Source: a virus. Taken from it: a stretch of DNA of 35,615 nucleotides. Below the pieces are notes generated by a model. It was not told where the DNA came from, did no database searches, and saw only the letters and a program-made list of their open reading frames with translations. Shown in pieces: positions 3,777-26,953 of this stretch (its first letter is position 1; each line of letters opens with the position of its first letter). The stretch is from the IMG/VR virus record IMGVR_UViG_3300033567_000012, positions 1-35,615 of that record; one strand, 5' to 3'. The position numbers and the translations under genes are program-made.

Positions 3777-3788
3777 GGAGGTGGTCAT

Positions 3789-6098
3789 GTGGGCGTAAAA
3801 GATGCGTGGAAAGCGTTGTTCCAAGGTGAGCGAGCGCCGAAAAACTCACCCATGCGCGGCGAAGTCGGTATGACAGGCAACAAAATGTTTTCGGGGTTAC
3901 CAATGGACGAGTATAATCCCGACTTGGCGTTTCCAAAGTCGATAGAAGTCTACGACCAGATGCGGCGGTCAGATGGGCAGATTGGCGCCGTCCTCAATGC
4001 AATCAAGCTGCCGATACGCTCGGCGAAGTGGTATGTCGAGCCTAATGAGGATGCGAAGGATGAAAAATTGGCTGAGCAGATTGCGGAGTTCATTGAGGAC
4101 AACTTGATGGGCGGAATGGCTTACAGTTGGGACGACCACCTGCGTGAGGCATTGTTGATGCTGGACTTTGGATTCTCGGTATTCGAGAAGGTGTACAAGT
4201 TTGACACGTGGCAGAATAAGCCGGTGATTATGCTAGACAAGTATGCACCCCGTGTTGCTCCGTCTATCTGGAGGTTTCCACAAGACGAAGAGACTGGCGA
4301 CGTTGTTGCGGTCGAACAACTCAACTACTACACAGGCCAGTTGTTTTCAATCCCGCTGACAAAGTGTCGTCTCTACACGTACAACCGCGAGGGTGACAAT
4401 CCAGCAGGGATTAGTCTGTTACGCCAGGCGTACAAGCACTGGTACTACAAGGATTCGCTCTACCGCATCATGGCGGTCGGAGTGGAAAAATCACTGGTGG
4501 GTACACCTTACGCGACGATGCCAAAAGGTGCGTCTGAGCAGGACAAGAACTCGGTTCTCGCTGTTATATCGGCGATTCGCTCAGCTGAAGAGGCAGGTTT
4601 CACGATTCCTGAAGGCGTCATCCTCGGGATGCTTGAAGGTACGAAGAACGCAGTCGATGCCATGCCGCTGATGGAGCACCATGACACACTGATTGCGCGG
4701 TCGGTGCTCGGCCAGTTTCTCAACCTAGGTACCATGTCGTCAGCATCCGGTGGCAGTTTTGCGCTCGGTCAAACACAAGTCAGTCTGTTTTTGCAAGGGT
4801 TGGAAGCTATCGCAAACTATATCCAAGGCGAGATTCAGCACGACATTGAGCAACTCGTGGAATGGAACTTCGGCAAAGATGCGCCGGTACCACAACTCAA
4901 ACACGGTCTCATCACGATTGAGAGTGTATCCGAACGTATGACAGCGATTGCCGCTCTTGGTGCTGGTCACTTGGTCAATCCCGATGAATCGCTGGAGAAT
5001 TATCTGCGTAGCCTCATGGGATTGCCGCCGATTACGAAAGCGACGCTCGACAACCAGTTGCTATTGCCTGCTAACCGCTATGAGCCGGAGATTATTCCGA
5101 ACAAACCGCTTACACCACAAATGGCCGCTGACGCCGCGAAGGCACAAGCACAAGCCAAAGCACCAGGCATCATACCGGGTGCCACGGCTATCAAAGCTAG
5201 TGAGAGCGACACAGGTTTCACGTTCGCTGATGACGGTCCCAAAACGACTGGAGGCGGCCAACCACCGGCGCAAACGGGGAAGTGGAAGCGGGAACTCACT
5301 GCGCTCGAAAGCGAAGACATGCTTGTGCGGCTCAGCAAGGAATGGCAAGAGCACGAAAGCCAGTGGCAGTCACGTCTCGCGACACAGCAACAAACAGCTG
5401 CCAAGGACCTCGTTGACCAGGTGCGCCAAGTCGTCATGGCCCACACGAACAAGTTGATGCAGATGAACGATGTCAACAGCCTTAAAGTTCCGGTGGATAT
5501 GCAAGCCAAATACCAACAACAGATTGAGCAGTTGCTCACGCAATCCTATGAGACCGGCACAAACAGCACGGCTGCAGAACTCGGCACAACCAGTCCAACG
5601 GCCATCGATGCGGAGGTAACCGCACTCATCTCGGCAAAGGCGCAGTTGCTGGCGGGGGTGCAACTCGGCAAGCTCACAGATGGCGTGAAGTTTGCGGTTA
5701 TCGACCAACTAACACGGAACCACGCGGTTGGCGAAGTCGTCACAGCTGCACGACAGGCTGCGGCCACATTTATCGACGGCAACGACTTGAAGACTAGCGG
5801 TATGGTGTCGATTGGCGAGGCTCTGAACATCGGGCGCGGAGTTACGGCGAAAGCGGTAGGCGTCAAAGGTGCGCAGTGGTCGGCGGTACTGGATGACCAC
5901 ACATGTCCGCTGTGTGAATCGCTAGATGGCAAGAATATAAGCGCCGAGAACAAGGACTTTGATATTTTTAGGCCACCGCTTCACATCGGTTGCAGATGCA
6001 TCTTGGTATATATTGGAAGCAACAATACTGGTGAAGTGTACAACTGGGTGACACCGAGTCCGGAACTCGTGAAAAAGTATGGTCACCTCGTAAGTTAA
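3789..6098 (+). CDS. Portal protein (DUF935/Mu gp29 type) fused to a minor head (Mu gpF type) domain
   Basis: Residues ~20-430 resemble Mu gp29-type portals (DPDGQ-like RRSDGQIGAVLNAIKLPIRSAKWYVEP, then SVFEKVYKF). The portal is the ring at one capsid vertex through which DNA passes. Residues ~680-769 match the C-terminal Mu gpF/SPP1 gp7 domain: WSAVLDDHTCPLCESLDG...HIGCRC, with C706, C709, C735 and C737 placed to bind zinc. In many phages these are two genes; here one 769-residue frame carries both, joined by an Ala/Gln-rich linker. The start is GTG at 3789: AAGGAGGTGG (3776-3785) precedes it, and the ATG two bases earlier runs into a stop. Confidence 0.85.
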   Translation: MGVKDAWKALFQGERAPKNSPMRGEVGMTGNKMFSGLPMDEYNPDLAFPKSIEVYDQMRRSDGQIGAVLNAIKLPIRSAKWYVEPNEDAKDEKLAEQIAEFIEDNLMGGMAYSWDDHLREALLMLDFGFSVFEKVYKFDTWQNKPVIMLDKYAPRVAPSIWRFPQDEETGDVVAVEQLNYYTGQLFSIPLTKCRLYTYNREGDNPAGISLLRQAYKHWYYKDSLYRIMAVGVEKSLVGTPYATMPKGASEQDKNSVLAVISAIRSAEEAGFTIPEGVILGMLEGTKNAVDAMPLMEHHDTLIARSVLGQFLNLGTMSSASGGSFALGQTQVSLFLQGLEAIANYIQGEIQHDIEQLVEWNFGKDAPVPQLKHGLITIESVSERMTAIAALGAGHLVNPDESLENYLRSLMGLPPITKATLDNQLLLPANRYEPEIIPNKPLTPQMAADAAKAQAQAKAPGIIPGATAIKASESDTGFTFADDGPKTTGGGQPPAQTGKWKRELTALESEDMLVRLSKEWQEHESQWQSRLATQQQTAAKDLVDQVRQVVMAHTNKLMQMNDVNSLKVPVDMQAKYQQQIEQLLTQSYETGTNSTAAELGTTSPTAIDAEVTALISAKAQLLAGVQLGKLTDGVKFAVIDQLTRNHAVGEVVTAARQAAATFIDGNDLKTSGMVSIGEALNIGRGVTAKAVGVKGAQWSAVLDDHTCPLCESLDGKNISAENKDFDIFRPPLHIGCRCILVYIGSNNTGEVYNWVTPSPELVKKYGHLVS

Positions 6099-6189: not shown

Positions 6190-7746
6190 GTGGCACATGG
6201 GATGATTGACCTCGCGCAATTTGCGGAGAGCGCAAGTGGCGAGAGCTGGATTCAGATTATGAAAACAGGCAATTGGCAACATCCGAAGCTGAAGGAAGTT
6301 GCAATAACAAATAAAGACCTCGCACAGTTCAAGGACAACTTCGATAAACGCGTGCGCGGTGTCGATTTAGCTGTAGACGTATCGCATAATCCCGATGCCG
6401 GTGCAACAGGGTGGTTCAAAGAACTTAAAGTTGACGGCGACAAGCTGATGGCGAAAGTTGACTGGACTGAAGAAGGCGCTCAACTGGTGAAGTCGGGTAA
6501 ATATCGCTACTTCTCGCCTGAGTTTATGTTCCAATGGACTGACCCAGCGACGAAACAGACCCACAACAATGTCATGCTTGGTGGAGCGCTTACCAACAGG
6601 CCGTTCCTGAAGGACATGGAGCCGATTGCCTTCAGCGAATCGGGCATGGGCACCGTGTGGATGTCGGACGACGAAAGCATGGCAAATCCACAACACTATG
6701 CGTCGAGCGTAAAGCATGACGACGGCACGCACTACGACCCTGACGGCGATGGTGACGACGACAGCACAACGGATCCTCGTGCAAATCCGGACTGGATGTC
6801 CGACGTGAAGATGGGTGCGACTGCATGGCCGGAGCACACCGCCCAACAAGCGGAACTCGCGAAGGCTGGCGTAAACAAAGCAGACGCAGACAAGAAGTTT
6901 GCTGCGTTCCAGAAAGTTCATCCGATGCCTGGTCACAAGTCAGTGCAGATGTCTGAGCCGGTTGTTACCAACTCGCATAAGACACCACCGAAAGGCAAGC
7001 CGCAGAACCGTGACCTATACGCTGACCCTGACAACTACAAGTACCCGATTGACGCCAAGCACGTACATGCGGCCGTTAGCTACTACAACCAGGGTGGTAT
7101 GCAGTCAAAGGGTGGATACAGCGACGGCCAGTGGTCATCCGTTGGTAGTCGGATTGCGAAGGCCGCTGGTGATGGATACAGCCTCAAGGGTGGCAAAATC
7201 GAAACGCCGTCAACTCACGAAATGAGCGAAGCGGTGTATGACCCGGAGGCGAATCCCGATGACGGCATATCGACGCCGCACAAAACGGATGACACCAACG
7301 CCGGGAAATTTACAGATGGAGGTGGCAAAATGCCAGGCGAAAACGTTGTAACGATGGCCGAGTTTCAAGCGGCTCAAGCAAAGATTCAATTGCTGGAGAC
7401 CGAGAACCGCCAAGTCAAGATGACTGAAAAGGTGCGCAGTTGGATGTTTGACGAGAGCACCAAAACAGGCAAGATTGCACCAGCTCAGCACGACAAGACT
7501 GTCGAGATGCTCATGGGTATGTCGGAAGAGCAAGTGGCCGCATTTAGCGAGTTTATGGCGCAGGCACCAGCGGCAATCAGTTTTGGTGAGCACGGAACAT
7601 CTGCGGATGTCACTGCACGCATGAAGGAAACTGGTGGCGACAAGTCAGACCAAGTCGTGAAGCTGGCTGAGAAGAAGATGCGCGATGACCACATGGAGTG
7701 GAAAGAAGCGTTCATCGAGGCTTCGGACGAACTGGGGGTGAAGTAA
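6190..7746 (+). CDS. Head maturation protease/scaffold with inserted domain
   Basis: The first ~170 residues resemble Mu gpI-type prohead proteases (SWIQIMKTGNW...VDVSHNPDAGATGWFKEL, then KYRYFSPEF and a LTNRPFLKDMEPIAFSE end). The C-terminal ~130 residues are charged and helical, as in scaffolding parts. Between them lies an acidic DPDGDGDDD stretch, a WPEHTAQQAELAKAG segment, and a module rich in YADPDNYKYPIDAKHVHAAVSYYN and YSLKGGK that is known from other phage protease genes and has an unknown job. The GTG at 6190 follows AAAGGGGGTGG (6174-6184); the ATG at 6157 would place this site inside the gene. The order protease-decoration-capsid supports the call. Confidence 0.8.
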   Translation: MAHGMIDLAQFAESASGESWIQIMKTGNWQHPKLKEVAITNKDLAQFKDNFDKRVRGVDLAVDVSHNPDAGATGWFKELKVDGDKLMAKVDWTEEGAQLVKSGKYRYFSPEFMFQWTDPATKQTHNNVMLGGALTNRPFLKDMEPIAFSESGMGTVWMSDDESMANPQHYASSVKHDDGTHYDPDGDGDDDSTTDPRANPDWMSDVKMGATAWPEHTAQQAELAKAGVNKADADKKFAAFQKVHPMPGHKSVQMSEPVVTNSHKTPPKGKPQNRDLYADPDNYKYPIDAKHVHAAVSYYNQGGMQSKGGYSDGQWSSVGSRIAKAAGDGYSLKGGKIETPSTHEMSEAVYDPEANPDDGISTPHKTDDTNAGKFTDGGGKMPGENVVTMAEFQAAQAKIQLLETENRQVKMTEKVRSWMFDESTKTGKIAPAQHDKTVEMLMGMSEEQVAAFSEFMAQAPAAISFGEHGTSADVTARMKETGGDKSDQVVKLAEKKMRDDHMEWKEAFIEASDELGVK

Positions 7747-8328
7747 TTGTACACAGGAATCAAAGGAGCACAGCAGGTACTTGTTGAGACGCTTATCGCT
7801 GACGCGGCGGTGAACCAGTTTCAAGCAATCGTACAAAGTAATACGGACTACCACGGCACGAATCCGGCCGGCGCAAACGCAAGTGGATTCGTCGGCATCA
7901 CGCTCGATGCTGCTGCAGCTGGTGACAGTGTGCCGGTTGTCATGCTCGGTACTGCGTGGTGTACGGCTGCTGGCGTGATTACGTCTGGCCAGTACGTTAG
8001 TATCGCAAACGCAACGGGCCAAGTGGGAGCTGGCGGCAGCAATGTGATCGGTATCGCGTTGAGCACCACAGCTGCAGCTGGTGATTATGTGTTGGTGTAT
8101 ATCTCGCCATCGCCTGGTGCGTCCGACCTGAAAAAAGTTTCCGGTACCACAAACGCGACCCCGGCAACACAAGATGCCTACGCGCATGGGCTTGGTTACA
8201 TTCCTAACACCGTACTCATCACACCTAAAGGTGACGGCATTGTGTACGAATCAGCCACAGCTGACGCAACAAACATTTACGTGTCGGCCTCTGTTGCGTC
8301 TATCAGTTTTGACGCTTACGTCGGCTAA
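7747..8328 (+). CDS. Capsid decoration (DUF2190-like) protein with added C-terminal domain
   Basis: Residues 1-125 are rich in Ala, Gly and beta-forming residues with a repeating pattern of ...GDSVPVVMLGTAWCTAAGVITSGQYVSIAN..., as in DUF2190-type head decoration proteins that bind the outside of the capsid. The last ~60 residues (HGLGYIPNTVLITPKGDGIVYE...) resemble a small beta-sandwich found at the ends of tail and head fibres, so the protein may display an exposed domain. The TTG start lies directly after the protease stop, with GGGGGTGAAG as ribosome site. Its place just before the capsid gene is the usual one. The family assignment rests on pattern and position. Confidence 0.65.
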   Translation: MYTGIKGAQQVLVETLIADAAVNQFQAIVQSNTDYHGTNPAGANASGFVGITLDAAAAGDSVPVVMLGTAWCTAAGVITSGQYVSIANATGQVGAGGSNVIGIALSTTAAAGDYVLVYISPSPGASDLKKVSGTTNATPATQDAYAHGLGYIPNTVLITPKGDGIVYESATADATNIYVSASVASISFDAYVG

Positions 8329-19584: not shown

Positions 19585-20034
19585 GTGTCAGGTATCAATG
19601 TAGTGCAGATAGATGCCACAACAAGCGTCGTGTATGCGATAAGTTCGCTGAACGATTTGGCGATTGTTTCAAGCAATGCGATAGAGATACCGACTTATCG
19701 AGCGGATTTAATGAGTACGGTGTATAACAGTGTCACAAAGACGTTCAGCGGATTCATCACCACCTTGACAGCGGATAAGACGACCATCACCGCGAACGGA
19801 ACTGACGTATCCACGGTTACTGCTACAGTGACGGATTACACCGGAGTACTCGCAACTACACTCAGTGGGAATGTGGTTTTCACCTTCAACGGTCAACAAC
19901 ATACCGTTGCATTGGCAAATGGACAAGCACAGACGCAATTCAGCAGTACAACTGCCGGAGTTTTCACGCTCGTCGGGAGTGTAGACGGCGGTCATAACAA
20001 ACAGACTGGCGCAATTGCGATTACCGCACAATAG
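19585..20034 (+). CDS. Ig-like (Big/invasin type) domain virion protein
   Basis: 149 residues. Residues 55-149 (LTADKTTITANGTDVSTVTATVTDYTGVLATTLSGNVVFTFNG...ANGQAQTQFSSTTAGVFTLVGSV) are a clear bacterial Ig-like domain of the Big_1/invasin type. Phages use such domains on surface proteins, probably for weak binding to cell wall or sugars. The first 55 residues may anchor it. GTG follows AAAGGAGTGA. Confidence 0.75.
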   Translation: MSGINVVQIDATTSVVYAISSLNDLAIVSSNAIEIPTYRADLMSTVYNSVTKTFSGFITTLTADKTTITANGTDVSTVTATVTDYTGVLATTLSGNVVFTFNGQQHTVALANGQAQTQFSSTTAGVFTLVGSVDGGHNKQTGAIAITAQ

Positions 20035-20758: not shown

Positions 20759-20814
20759 ACTAACAAATCTATCGTAGGGTGTAGGTAAGACGAGTGGCGA
20801 GGCGGGGTGTAAAT

Positions 20815-21213
20815 ATGATGACGGACGACCAGCGCATTGGAACTCTAGAGGGGTGGTCGCAGTCGGCTGACCGCCGATTTGACGAGATAGGTCGACGGAT
20901 GGACAAGCAAGACACGAATCTACAACGTATCTGGGAGCGCCTAGACTTGCACAGGGATGGCCAAGTCAAGACGCAGACATTGGTCGAGGTCGGTAATCGT
21001 GATGTAGCCGAACTAAAGGTGCAAATGGCACAAAATGCTACAACTCAGCAGGATATACTTCAGACGCTGAGCGCACAAAACGTAACAAGTTTAAAGCGCT
21101 CAACTGAGCAGGACGCGCACTCTGCAGGTAAATGGGAAAATTTCTACAGTAAGGCGTTCTGGATTATCGTGACTGGGGTAGCTACCTATTTCGGATATTC
21201 ACTCTTCAAATAA
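20815..21213 (+). CDS. XhlA-like membrane protein of the lysis module
   Basis: 132 residues from ATG 20815: a long coiled coil (ADRRFDEIGRRMDKQDTNLQRIWERLD...) and one C-terminal membrane segment (FWIIVTGVATYFGYSLF), the architecture of haemolysin XhlA-like proteins that work with holins. GGCGGGGTG precedes this ATG; a GTG at 20794 would add seven residues and is less likely. It sits directly before the lysin gene. Confidence 0.7.
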   Translation: MMTDDQRIGTLEGWSQSADRRFDEIGRRMDKQDTNLQRIWERLDLHRDGQVKTQTLVEVGNRDVAELKVQMAQNATTQQDILQTLSAQNVTSLKRSTEQDAHSAGKWENFYSKAFWIIVTGVATYFGYSLFK

Positions 21214-21229: not shown

Positions 21230-22672
21230 GTGCAACCATGGCAGGGCAAGTCAATTTTCATCTGGGAGTTGTCAGCTTGCGAACAAGGCACCTTGCAGGC
21301 AATAGCACAACAGGCAGCATCTGCAAAGCTGGACTCGGTCATCGTCAAGGCACACGACGGCGCAGGGTGGTGGTCACAATTTACATCTGAGTTAGTGAGT
21401 ACGCTGCATGCTCACAGCATCAAGGTAGGTGCCTGGGGCTACTGTTACGGACACGACGTGCCAGGCGAAGCGGAGCAGGCGTGTCAGGCGCTCAGTCTGG
21501 GTGCTGATTTCTACGTGGCAGACGTCGAAGTGGAGTTTGAGGGTATGTTCAGCGATGTAGCCGCCAACTTGATGCAACGCATTCGCGCCGGTGCAAGTGG
21601 CAAACCGATAGGTTTTACATCGTTTGGACTACCCGCCGACCACCCTAGTTTTCCATGGCAGACGTTCGCGGCGAACAGCGACTTCATGCTGCCGCAAGTG
21701 TATTGGGTGGATTGGGGAATGCCTGCACAACAGGCTGTCAGGATGTCCAATGAACAGTGTGGCAAGTATGGTGTTCCAGTGGTACCAGTAGGACAGGCTT
21801 ACGGGGCAGTTGGAAGCTATGCGATTGACCAGTTCGCGGCGTCTGCTAGTGGCGCTTCCGGAATCTCATTTTGGAGCTGGCAACATGCAACAGCAGATAT
21901 GTGGCTTGGGATTGCCCAGGCAACTACGACGAGAGGGGTGATTGTCACGTTACAATATGGCAACAGCGGCGAAGCGGTAAAATCACTGCAAATTGACCTG
22001 AACAAAGTACTTGGCATCCACATCGCGGAGGATGGCCAGTATGGTCCGGCGACAGATGCGGCGGTGAAGTCGTTGCAAGTCATCGCTCATCTGACGGTCG
22101 ATGGTATTGCTGGAGAGGCAACATATGCGGTGCTGGATGAGAAGCTGAAGGCGATGCAAAAGTCTGTAGTCGCGCCAGCACCAGTTGCGAAAGTTCCTAT
22201 CACGCAACCGACTGAGACCGATAAGGTCAAACAAGCGCTGGCACTACTTGCACAAGCAAGTGATGTCATCGCGTCGATGGGTGGGACGATTGCGCCATCT
22301 AGCAGCGTCATTGCTACGGTGCCAATCGACGTACTGAACGATGCCGTCTACTTTTTGTGTGACGGGATTGGTCGTCTTCAGCTTGATACCGGAGATTTCA
22401 AGTTGTGCTTAGCCGGTGATTATGCCAAAGCAGCAAACCTGCCGAATCTAGGTGCGCTGACGATTCAAGGGGTTGGCGGGACGGCACACGCCTACAACTC
22501 GAAAGTCACATTTAAGCTCGGCGAGACCACGTACACAGACGTCCCATGTGTCGTTGACGAAGCGATGCAGATGGGCACGAGCAACGGGTTGTTCGGATTA
22601 GACTTTCTGAACGCAAATGGGATTTCAATCACCTTGGACCCAGTCGCAAAAACACTAACGTTTTCTAAATGA
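21230..22672 (+). CDS. Endolysin: GH-like barrel + peptidoglycan-binding + retropepsin-like domain
   Basis: 480 residues, three parts. Residues 1-225 look like a GH25-type/glycosidase TIM barrel (VIVKAHDG, KVGAWGYCYG, ADVEVEFEG, QVYWVDWG, FWSWQHA), with acidic residues at strand ends for wall-sugar cleavage. Residues 240-306 are a PG_binding_1 repeat (YGNSGEAVKSLQIDLN...EDGQYGPATDAAVKSLQ). After a Pro-rich linker, residues ~364-480 resemble retropepsin-type aspartyl proteases: LQLDTGD with D386, a GVGGTAHAY turn, DVPCVVDE, and GLFGLDFLN at 453-461. GTG start follows AAGTGAGGTGAT. No signal peptide, so the holin should release it. The third domain is very unusual for a lysin. Confidence 0.82.
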   Translation: MQPWQGKSIFIWELSACEQGTLQAIAQQAASAKLDSVIVKAHDGAGWWSQFTSELVSTLHAHSIKVGAWGYCYGHDVPGEAEQACQALSLGADFYVADVEVEFEGMFSDVAANLMQRIRAGASGKPIGFTSFGLPADHPSFPWQTFAANSDFMLPQVYWVDWGMPAQQAVRMSNEQCGKYGVPVVPVGQAYGAVGSYAIDQFAASASGASGISFWSWQHATADMWLGIAQATTTRGVIVTLQYGNSGEAVKSLQIDLNKVLGIHIAEDGQYGPATDAAVKSLQVIAHLTVDGIAGEATYAVLDEKLKAMQKSVVAPAPVAKVPITQPTETDKVKQALALLAQASDVIASMGGTIAPSSSVIATVPIDVLNDAVYFLCDGIGRLQLDTGDFKLCLAGDYAKAANLPNLGALTIQGVGGTAHAYNSKVTFKLGETTYTDVPCVVDEAMQMGTSNGLFGLDFLNANGISITLDPVAKTLTFSK

Positions 22673-22703: not shown

Positions 22704-23147
22704 GTGACTCAATCACTCGAATTACAAGTGGTTCAAGGATTGCTCGGCTTGCTACTGGCCGCGACGACCGCAGGCATCGGATATGTGGCCCCGCGAGTAA
22801 AACGGTGGCTATCAGCTCACTCGACCGCACAAGTGGCGGGGGTTGCGGGTAAAGTTATCGATGGATTGTCGACGATTGCTGAGGCTGTCGTGCAGGATTT
22901 CAATCAGCGCGTGGTGCTCGACGCGAAGAAGCAAGGGACGTGGACGCCGCAGTTGGCCGCGAGTGTAAAGGCTGACGCGTTGGTTGCTGTGCGTGACCAG
23001 GGCGCGCAACTCGTGGCGCTCGGTCAAAGTGTGGTGGGGAATATGGACGGACTGATTGCATCGCTAGTCGAGCAGGTGGTCGGTCGACAGAAGATGTGGA
23101 CGACACAAAGCTCAGTGTTACGGGCTGTCACGCCACAAACCGCTTAA
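22704..23147 (+). CDS. Holin, LL-H type
   Basis: 147 residues with one N-terminal membrane segment (VVQGLLGLLLAATTAGIGYVAP), a basic RVKRW border, and a long helical C-terminal part (VAGKVIDGLSTIAEAVVQDFNQ...) as in LL-H/phage_holin_6-like proteins. It opens the membrane at the end of infection. GTG follows AGGGAGGTAAT. The last codons overlap the end of the opposite-strand regulator gene. Confidence 0.75.
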   Translation: MTQSLELQVVQGLLGLLLAATTAGIGYVAPRVKRWLSAHSTAQVAGVAGKVIDGLSTIAEAVVQDFNQRVVLDAKKQGTWTPQLAASVKADALVAVRDQGAQLVALGQSVVGNMDGLIASLVEQVVGRQKMWTTQSSVLRAVTPQTA

Positions 23148-26314: not shown

Positions 26315-26953
26315 TTGAAGAAAATTGCGGGTTATGCAGTTGCTTTTGTACTTGGCAGCGCGTTGTCTGGCGGTGCAGTTATGGCGGCCACGAATTATGT
26401 TCAGGCGCTGAAAGGCGACTCGGTTATACAACTCAATGGGAATGCAGTTGAACACGCACCGAAGTTAGTCTACGGTGGCACGACATATGTGCAGTTGTAT
26501 TCTATTCAACAGGCTTTGAAACAGGCGGGATTTGGCGCTAACTGGGATGGCAGTCACATCACGGGTTTGTTCAATATGACGAGTTCGGAGACCGCAACAA
26601 ACACTCCTGTGAGTACCGCGAATGAAATCATCTCTTTATCTCAACACCAGCAGTGGGACGTCCTGTATTCCTATCTCGACCCAGACGTACAAGCCAAATA
26701 CACAGAAGCACAATTCATATCAGAACGGCAACAAAATGGATCCGCATTTGCGACTGTAAAAAGCTTTACTGTGCAACCATCGACAACCCTTTCAACTTGG
26801 TCAGATGCTTCAGGGACAGGTAATACGTATTCAAACGTTGCAGATGTGCCTTTCACTTTAACTTTGGACGATGGGACTACGATAAGTGGCAATATGCATT
26901 TGACTAAGGCTTCTGATGGTAATTGGAGATATTTCTGGTCTCCATCGACCTGA
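26315..26953 (+). CDS. Secreted stalk-domain-like protein (lysogenic cargo candidate)
   Basis: 212 residues. A clear signal peptide (MKKIAGYAVAFVLGSALSGGAVMAA) is followed by VIQLNGNAVEHAPKLVYGGTTYVQLYSIQQALKQAGFGANWDG, similar to the copper-amine-oxidase N-terminal-like/stalk domain of Firmicutes surface proteins. The C-terminal half (EIISLSQHQQWDVLYSYLDPDVQAKYTEAQF...VPFTLTLDDGTTISGNMHLTKASDGNWRYFW) resembles small NTF2-like extracytoplasmic domains. TTG start after GGCGGAGGTT. It stands alone, running rightward between leftward genes, as cargo genes do. Confidence 0.75.
   Translation: MKKIAGYAVAFVLGSALSGGAVMAATNYVQALKGDSVIQLNGNAVEHAPKLVYGGTTYVQLYSIQQALKQAGFGANWDGSHITGLFNMTSSETATNTPVSTANEIISLSQHQQWDVLYSYLDPDVQAKYTEAQFISERQQNGSAFATVKSFTVQPSTTLSTWSDASGTGNTYSNVADVPFTLTLDDGTTISGNMHLTKASDGNWRYFWSPST

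Follow-up and report, generated by a model that had tools for sequence, protein, structure and literature searches.

Phage endolysins are usually described as combinations of wall-cutting and wall-binding modules. Those whose head is of the GH25, Rv2525c-like or glucosaminidase type have in common with the lysin described here a PG_binding_1 domain, a position within a lysis cassette and probably the catalytic head, whereas an extra half-protease at the C-terminus distinguishes this lysin from its endolysin relatives, in which it was not found. The closest described counterpart of this additional domain is APRc (RC1339) of Rickettsia conorii (PDB 5c9b, 5c9d, 5c9f), which is the best fold match to both of our predicted models and the top match of profile searches in the PDB. 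APRc resembles the lysin domain in being a half-protease with a single DTG motif, but it carries the sequence DTGA, is anchored to the membrane of a Gram-negative cell and is found outside any lysin. Exported homodimeric retropepsins that act outside the cytoplasm have been described for RloA of Pseudomonas (PMC12239564), which is related to RimB, differs in architecture, contains an alanine after the DTG motif and is not fused to a lysin. Retroviral-protease-like domains of Ddi1 and the retroviral proteases of EIAV, FIV and HIV match the lysin domain in fold and sequence profile but belong to other hosts and polyproteins, and the Pfam family RVP is not reached. Finally, PF13650 and PF13975 define generic aspartyl protease families in Pfam, whereas the copies found in lysins constitute a group specific to one lineage, centred on the family of Alicyclobacillus ferrooxydans. 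Retropepsins and lysins are each known; a retropepsin–endolysin fusion, which recurs here among phages associated with a single bacterial family, is not described in the open-access literature that we searched.

The lysin and its genomic context

The window, as we refer to the whole stretch of DNA that was analysed, comprises the complete IMG/VR virus record of 35,615 bases. Its genes include those of terminase, portal, major capsid and tape-measure proteins, integrase, RecT and RecU, and the record is that of a temperate tailed phage. Used as direct queries, neither the C-terminal domain nor the entire lysin found anything retropepsin-like in phage and plasmid collections, viral contigs or genome contigs. 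After these searches, the relatives were reached via the major capsid protein, which is 74% identical to its counterpart in a viral record that is a prophage of A. ferrooxydans TC-34. Because of this kinship, the phage probably infects acid-loving bacteria of the Alicyclobacillus type. The features of the lysis region are as follows:

20794 to 21213, plus strand: XhlA/hemolysin-like gene of the lysis cassette, directly upstream of the lysin (phrog_937 'hemolysin', E 2.7e-4)
21230 to 22672, plus strand: lysin gene (480 amino acids) with a GTG start and GAGGTGATG ahead of the start codon
21230 to 21919, plus strand: catalytic head, residues 1 to ~230, a putative divergent GH25-like muramidase
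21965 to 22135, plus strand: PG_binding_1 wall-binding domain, residues 246–302 (Pfam E 1.6e-12)
22220 to 22270, plus strand: helix-like segment, residues ~331–347, at which relatives without a retropepsin end
22310 to 22669, plus strand: retropepsin-like half-protease domain, residues 361–480, as assigned from Pfam, profiles and predicted fold
22385 to 22396, plus strand: presumed catalytic DTG (386–388) and the unusual D389 (codon GAT), located in an alignment of the family
22469 to 22495, plus strand: flap motif GVGGTAHAY, residues 414–422, with G414, G416 and G417 common to all four lysins that bear the domain
22586 to 22612, plus strand: second hydrophobic-hydrophobic-Gly motif GLFGLDFLN, residues 453–461, with L454 and G456 found in all four lysins
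22704 to 23147, plus strand: holin-like candidate of 147 amino acids with an N-terminal hydrophobic segment, starting 31 bp past the lysin

The lysin matches endolysin families of PHROG (best E 1.2e-14) and contains, in this order, the divergent GH25-like head, PG_binding_1, a C-terminal helix and the retropepsin-like domain, with a Pro-containing linker at about residues 310–330 and a tail (348–360) ahead of the retropepsin. No Pfam family directly matches the head. Relatives of about 50% identity are found in four genomes, and since one of them (L098) exceeds the GH25 cut-off (34.8 vs 27 bits) and the sequence ADVEVE of the window head provides a D-x-E motif, our best guess is a divergent GH25 domain.

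The lysin is placed as expected for a lysis cassette, with the XhlA-like gene upstream and a small hydrophobic protein downstream. The latter, the holin-like candidate, matches no family in Pfam or PHROG and occupies a position equivalent to that of the genes behind the other three retropepsin-bearing lysins. As revealed by comparison, these downstream genes mostly do not form one homologous family. On the 5' side of the lysis genes, an open reading frame at 20015–20746 matches phrog_1128 (E 1.7e-15); by eye it resembles an NlpC/P60 or YiiX-like fold, and the PHROG name (enoyl-CoA hydratase-like) seems wrong. Following the tail genes, 19585–20034 encodes an Ig-like protein with Big_1, invasin D3 and GH2 C-terminal matches above cut-off.

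Assignment of the C-terminal domain

A preliminary description of this DNA had proposed a retropepsin-like aspartyl protease domain fused to the lysin at 22319–22672. These coordinates correctly enclose residues 364–480 and the stop codon, although the domain begins slightly earlier, around residue 361 (nucleotide 22310), and the strings quoted from the translation are all in place, namely LQLDTGD (containing D386), GVGGTAHAY (414–422), DVPCVVDE (437–444) and GLFGLDFLN (453–461). The proposed relationship was borne out in searches against retropepsin families. In Pfam, the isolated domain scores 28.7 bits for gag-asp_proteas (PF13975, cut-off 28.2) and 27.3 bits for Asp_protease_2 (PF13650, cut-off 24.3), and the latter is also reached by the full protein with 24.5 bits. 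Retroviral RVP (PF00077) was absent for the window at E <= 1, and the sister domain in L006 scored 19.0 bits against the cut-off of 20.7. A profile derived from 22 host proteins only retrieved the lysin frame from among all frames of the window with an E-value of 7.5e-35, the runner-up being at 0.64. A phmmer search of the PDB with the single window domain gave no match. Matches were obtained with profiles of 2 and of 26 sequences, and the top 17 matches listed for the 26-sequence profile are all retropepsins, with E-values of 3.4e-5 for the Rickettsia retropepsin ApRick, 1.2e-4 for Ddi1-type domains, 1.2e-4 for the EIAV protease and 3.9e-4 for the FIV protease. The family assignment rests on more than one weak score.

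The predicted structure leads to the same family. A single-chain AlphaFold2 model of residues 353–480, obtained from an input of four sequences (pLDDT 71, pTM 0.60), displays the retropepsin/pepsin-like fold that had been anticipated. In Foldseek the Rickettsia retropepsin ranks at the top (E 1.6e-4) and the 50 matches listed are aspartic proteases, and in VIA-align the same protein (5c9f) is again ranked first, with a Z of 8.4 and an rmsd of 4.6 over 115 residues. Since a Z near 8 alone may reflect a common arrangement, we also modelled the sister domain of a viral contig (L055) from the same four sequences; this model (pLDDT 88, pTM 0.79) superimposes on 5c9f with a Z of 13.4 and an rmsd of 3.6 over 122 residues. 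Other folds do not appear among the top matches listed by Foldseek and VIA-align, nor was there a confident match to a different known binding domain, which had been named as an alternative. Sequence profiles and predicted structure together confirm residues 361–480 of the lysin as a retropepsin-like (clan AA) half-protease. Its fusion to a phage lysin is likewise genuine and was seen again in three further lysins of phages or prophages, each with another head.

Distribution and origin of the domain

When constructed from the window domain and its counterpart in the A. ferrooxydans prophage, a profile finds matches in 25 of the 41 genomes analysed from the GTDB family of A. ferrooxydans. The corresponding open frames encode proteins of three kinds, which are stand-alone members (mostly about 125–140 amino acids), exported-type proteins and lysins. 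Seventeen proteins of 359–400 residues start with a hydrophobic leader and combine the retropepsin domain with an Ig-like stretch and a module resembling copper amine oxidase; judged by sequence, these host relatives look exported, which would indicate extracytoplasmic substrates. Of 399 genomes sampled evenly across the class, only 29 matched, with strong matches confined to the A. ferrooxydans family and to G353, G362 and G397, which may or may not belong to that family; the remaining ones are weak and concern generic clan AA proteins. These matches place the domain in a protein family whose members occur mainly in the A. ferrooxydans family of GTDB. Searches of 50,697 phage records did not retrieve the domain, and two alignment-based scans gave the same two viral contigs. 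Separately, a viral contig (L056) encodes a fibronectin-like plus retropepsin protein and a nearby open reading frame that by eye resembles an acid glutamic (G1) peptidase (3787–4710 and 7431–8309), and in two genomes (L074, L075) a small retropepsin carries a C-terminal tail of ~55 residues, consisting of a Pro-rich linker and about 35 further residues.

As far as can be told from their sequences, four lysin heads bear the domain, a divergent GH25, an Rv2525c-like, a GH25 and a glucosaminidase head, in four phages or prophages. At the genome position of the window lysin, the A. ferrooxydans TC-34 prophage contains a different lysin, which has a glycoside hydrolase head of the Rv2525c-like type, lacks PG_binding_1 and likewise ends in a retropepsin-like domain, here with the canonical DTGA. 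The two others are located in prophage neighbourhoods and consist of GH25, PG_binding_1 and retropepsin (L010) and of glucosaminidase and retropepsin (L051), the latter behind a holin-like gene and tail genes. In L055, an Ig-like plus retropepsin protein has a gene of its own, which immediately precedes that of an Rv2525c-like lysin. Among the matches in the 41 genomes of the family, the domain is carried by about one of 22 for GH25, one of 29 for Rv2525c-like and one of 85 for glucosaminidase lysins. Since so few of the matches bear it, the domain appears to be dispensable for lysis.

The relationship between lysins with and without the domain is illustrated by four genomes (L097–L100), which encode a lysin that is 46–50% identical to that of the window and ends without a retropepsin. 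On the window lysin, the alignment extends to residue 347 for L097, L099 and L100 and to residue 316 for L098, where the proteins stop, and a profile search detected no member of the retropepsin family in any of the four genomes. Because these relatives stop just before the domain, after the shared helix, the comparison indicates that the retropepsin was added to a lysin already complete with its two modules. A replacement of the wall binder was considered and rejected for the window lysin, where PG_binding_1 is intact and the relatives end right after the shared helix. In L098, L099 and L100, the divergent-GH25 plus PG_binding_1 lysin and a holin-like gene are located beside an apparent host hisZ-type gene, and the arrangement may represent a lysis cassette that has been domesticated or survives as a remnant.

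The four copies from lysins fall apart in a tree of 51 domains, all of them on long branches, and each is nearer to host proteins than to its three counterparts in lysins. A single ancestral fusion was rejected by constraining the four copies to one clade (AU p = 0.0019, to be read with caution in light of the long branches). The fact that unrelated lysins of other phages share the domain suggests that the protease part was added to lysins more than once, and repeated capture from hosts offers the best reading of the tree, with the small and exported retropepsins encoded by the host itself as most likely source. The copper-amine-oxidase-like module of the host proteins is also found in the lysin of L051 and, weakly, in that of L006. 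A lysin-like protein (L102, 1249–2301) has a transmembrane segment ahead of part of a head of the window type, then the module of the exported retropepsins, and contains no retropepsin. The presence of this module there and in the lysins of L051 and L006 indicates that modules are being shuffled.

Active-site residues and proposed role

The window copy retains the retropepsin hallmarks DTG, which is invariant in the family, the Gly-rich flap G414-x-G416-G417 and L454-F-G456 and lacks the small residue (A/S/T) after DTG. A comparison of 47 distinct proteins shows alanine at this position in 46 and aspartate exclusively in the window copy, where the codon of D389 (GAT) differs from the alanine codon GCT by one base, a difference that a sequencing error could produce. 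The preliminary description had correctly pointed out DTGD as a departure from DTGA/S, but that it is unique to this copy had gone unnoticed. Additionally, the hairpin ahead of DTG is shorter by several residues. Of 21 columns that are >= 90% conserved in 22 host proteins, the window copy retains 18. Invariant in the four lysins are D386, T387, G388, G414-x-G416-G417, A421, S424, V442, L454 and G456, and the host-conserved columns L402, L404, L407, P439, C440 and F459-F460 vary among them. This pattern, with DTG and flap retained, speaks for catalysis by the lysin-borne domains taken together. For the window copy itself, which may be active, altered or inactive, A389D and the shortened hairpin make activity doubtful; D389 weakens the case for proteolytic activity in this copy and not in its kin.

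We propose that an endolysin with a divergent GH25-like head and PG_binding_1 has gained a retropepsin half at the end of its complete chain. Once the lysin is released by a holin, the wall-bound protein would cut peptidoglycan, and two retropepsin halves would pair as a dimer and cleave wall-associated or S-layer-type envelope proteins that shield the peptidoglycan, thereby assisting lysis. In the window copy, this catalysis may have been reduced or lost through DTGD and the shortening of the first hairpin. We tentatively prefer to see in the domain a dimeric accessory protease that attacks envelope proteins once the lysin has been released, granting this reading somewhat less than an even chance; A389D and the shortened hairpin of the window copy, the weaker model of its domain compared to its sister from the same four sequences (pLDDT 71 vs 88), the rarity of the domain among lysins of the family and the pH range of APRc (see below) speak against it.

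Unlikely, albeit a serious contender, is a non-catalytic role of the retropepsin fold, above all in the window copy, as a dimerisation or protein-binding module by which the lysin would be tethered to a protein of the envelope. Such a role would agree with the change in the active-site motif that is unique among 47 proteins, with the shortened first hairpin and with the finding that APRc binds IgG independently of catalysis (PMC8649778). However, DTG and flap have been kept in four lysins over long branches while other columns drifted, and as the window lysin already contains PG_binding_1, a second anchor would be unneeded. It is improbable that the paired halves serve to cut the lysin's own linker and thus free or activate it. 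Retropepsins such as APRc do autoprocess via their catalytic Asp (PMC4140852), and the Pro-containing linker and the tail flanking the domain could offer sites for such cleavage, but complete lysin relatives exist without the domain, and the linkers are unlike among the four lysins, with no shared cleavage site found. Quite improbable is also a degenerate passenger, by which the window phage would carry a captured host fragment devoid of present function. Whereas A389D, the short hairpin and the lower model confidence are compatible with decay, the reading frame runs unbroken through the final strand, most host-conserved columns are retained and the fusion recurs in other phages. A chance resemblance or an assembly chimera, which might be suspected from Pfam scores barely above their cut-offs, has a negligible probability in view of the host-only profile, of the related A. 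ferrooxydans prophage, where a different lysin at the corresponding genome position also bears the domain, and of its occurrence in two further prophages.

Returning to an accessory protease that acts on envelope proteins, the attachment of a retropepsin half to at least four lysin types suggests that such proteins can constitute, beyond peptidoglycan, a barrier that lysins evolve to remove. As a wider hypothesis, which we consider possible rather than probable, phages of Alicyclobacillus-type acidophiles would repeatedly fuse captured host retropepsins to unrelated lysins and thereby combine the cutting of glycans and envelope proteins, with a protease that is possibly switched on by pH when leaving the cytoplasm. 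The bacterial retropepsin APRc works best at pH 6 and is not appreciably active at pH values under 5 (PMC4140852), so activity at a strongly acid outside pH cannot be assumed and a switch by the acid exterior is only a hypothesis. The system offers a testable case of a retropepsin at the cell surface, where lysins with and without the domain can be compared directly, and also starting points towards lysins effective on Alicyclobacillus, a genus causing juice spoilage. Elsewhere in the window, 26315–26953 encodes an exported copper-amine-oxidase-like protein, a 56% identical relative of which (L093, 10379–11173) is located just downstream of the prophage in G012.
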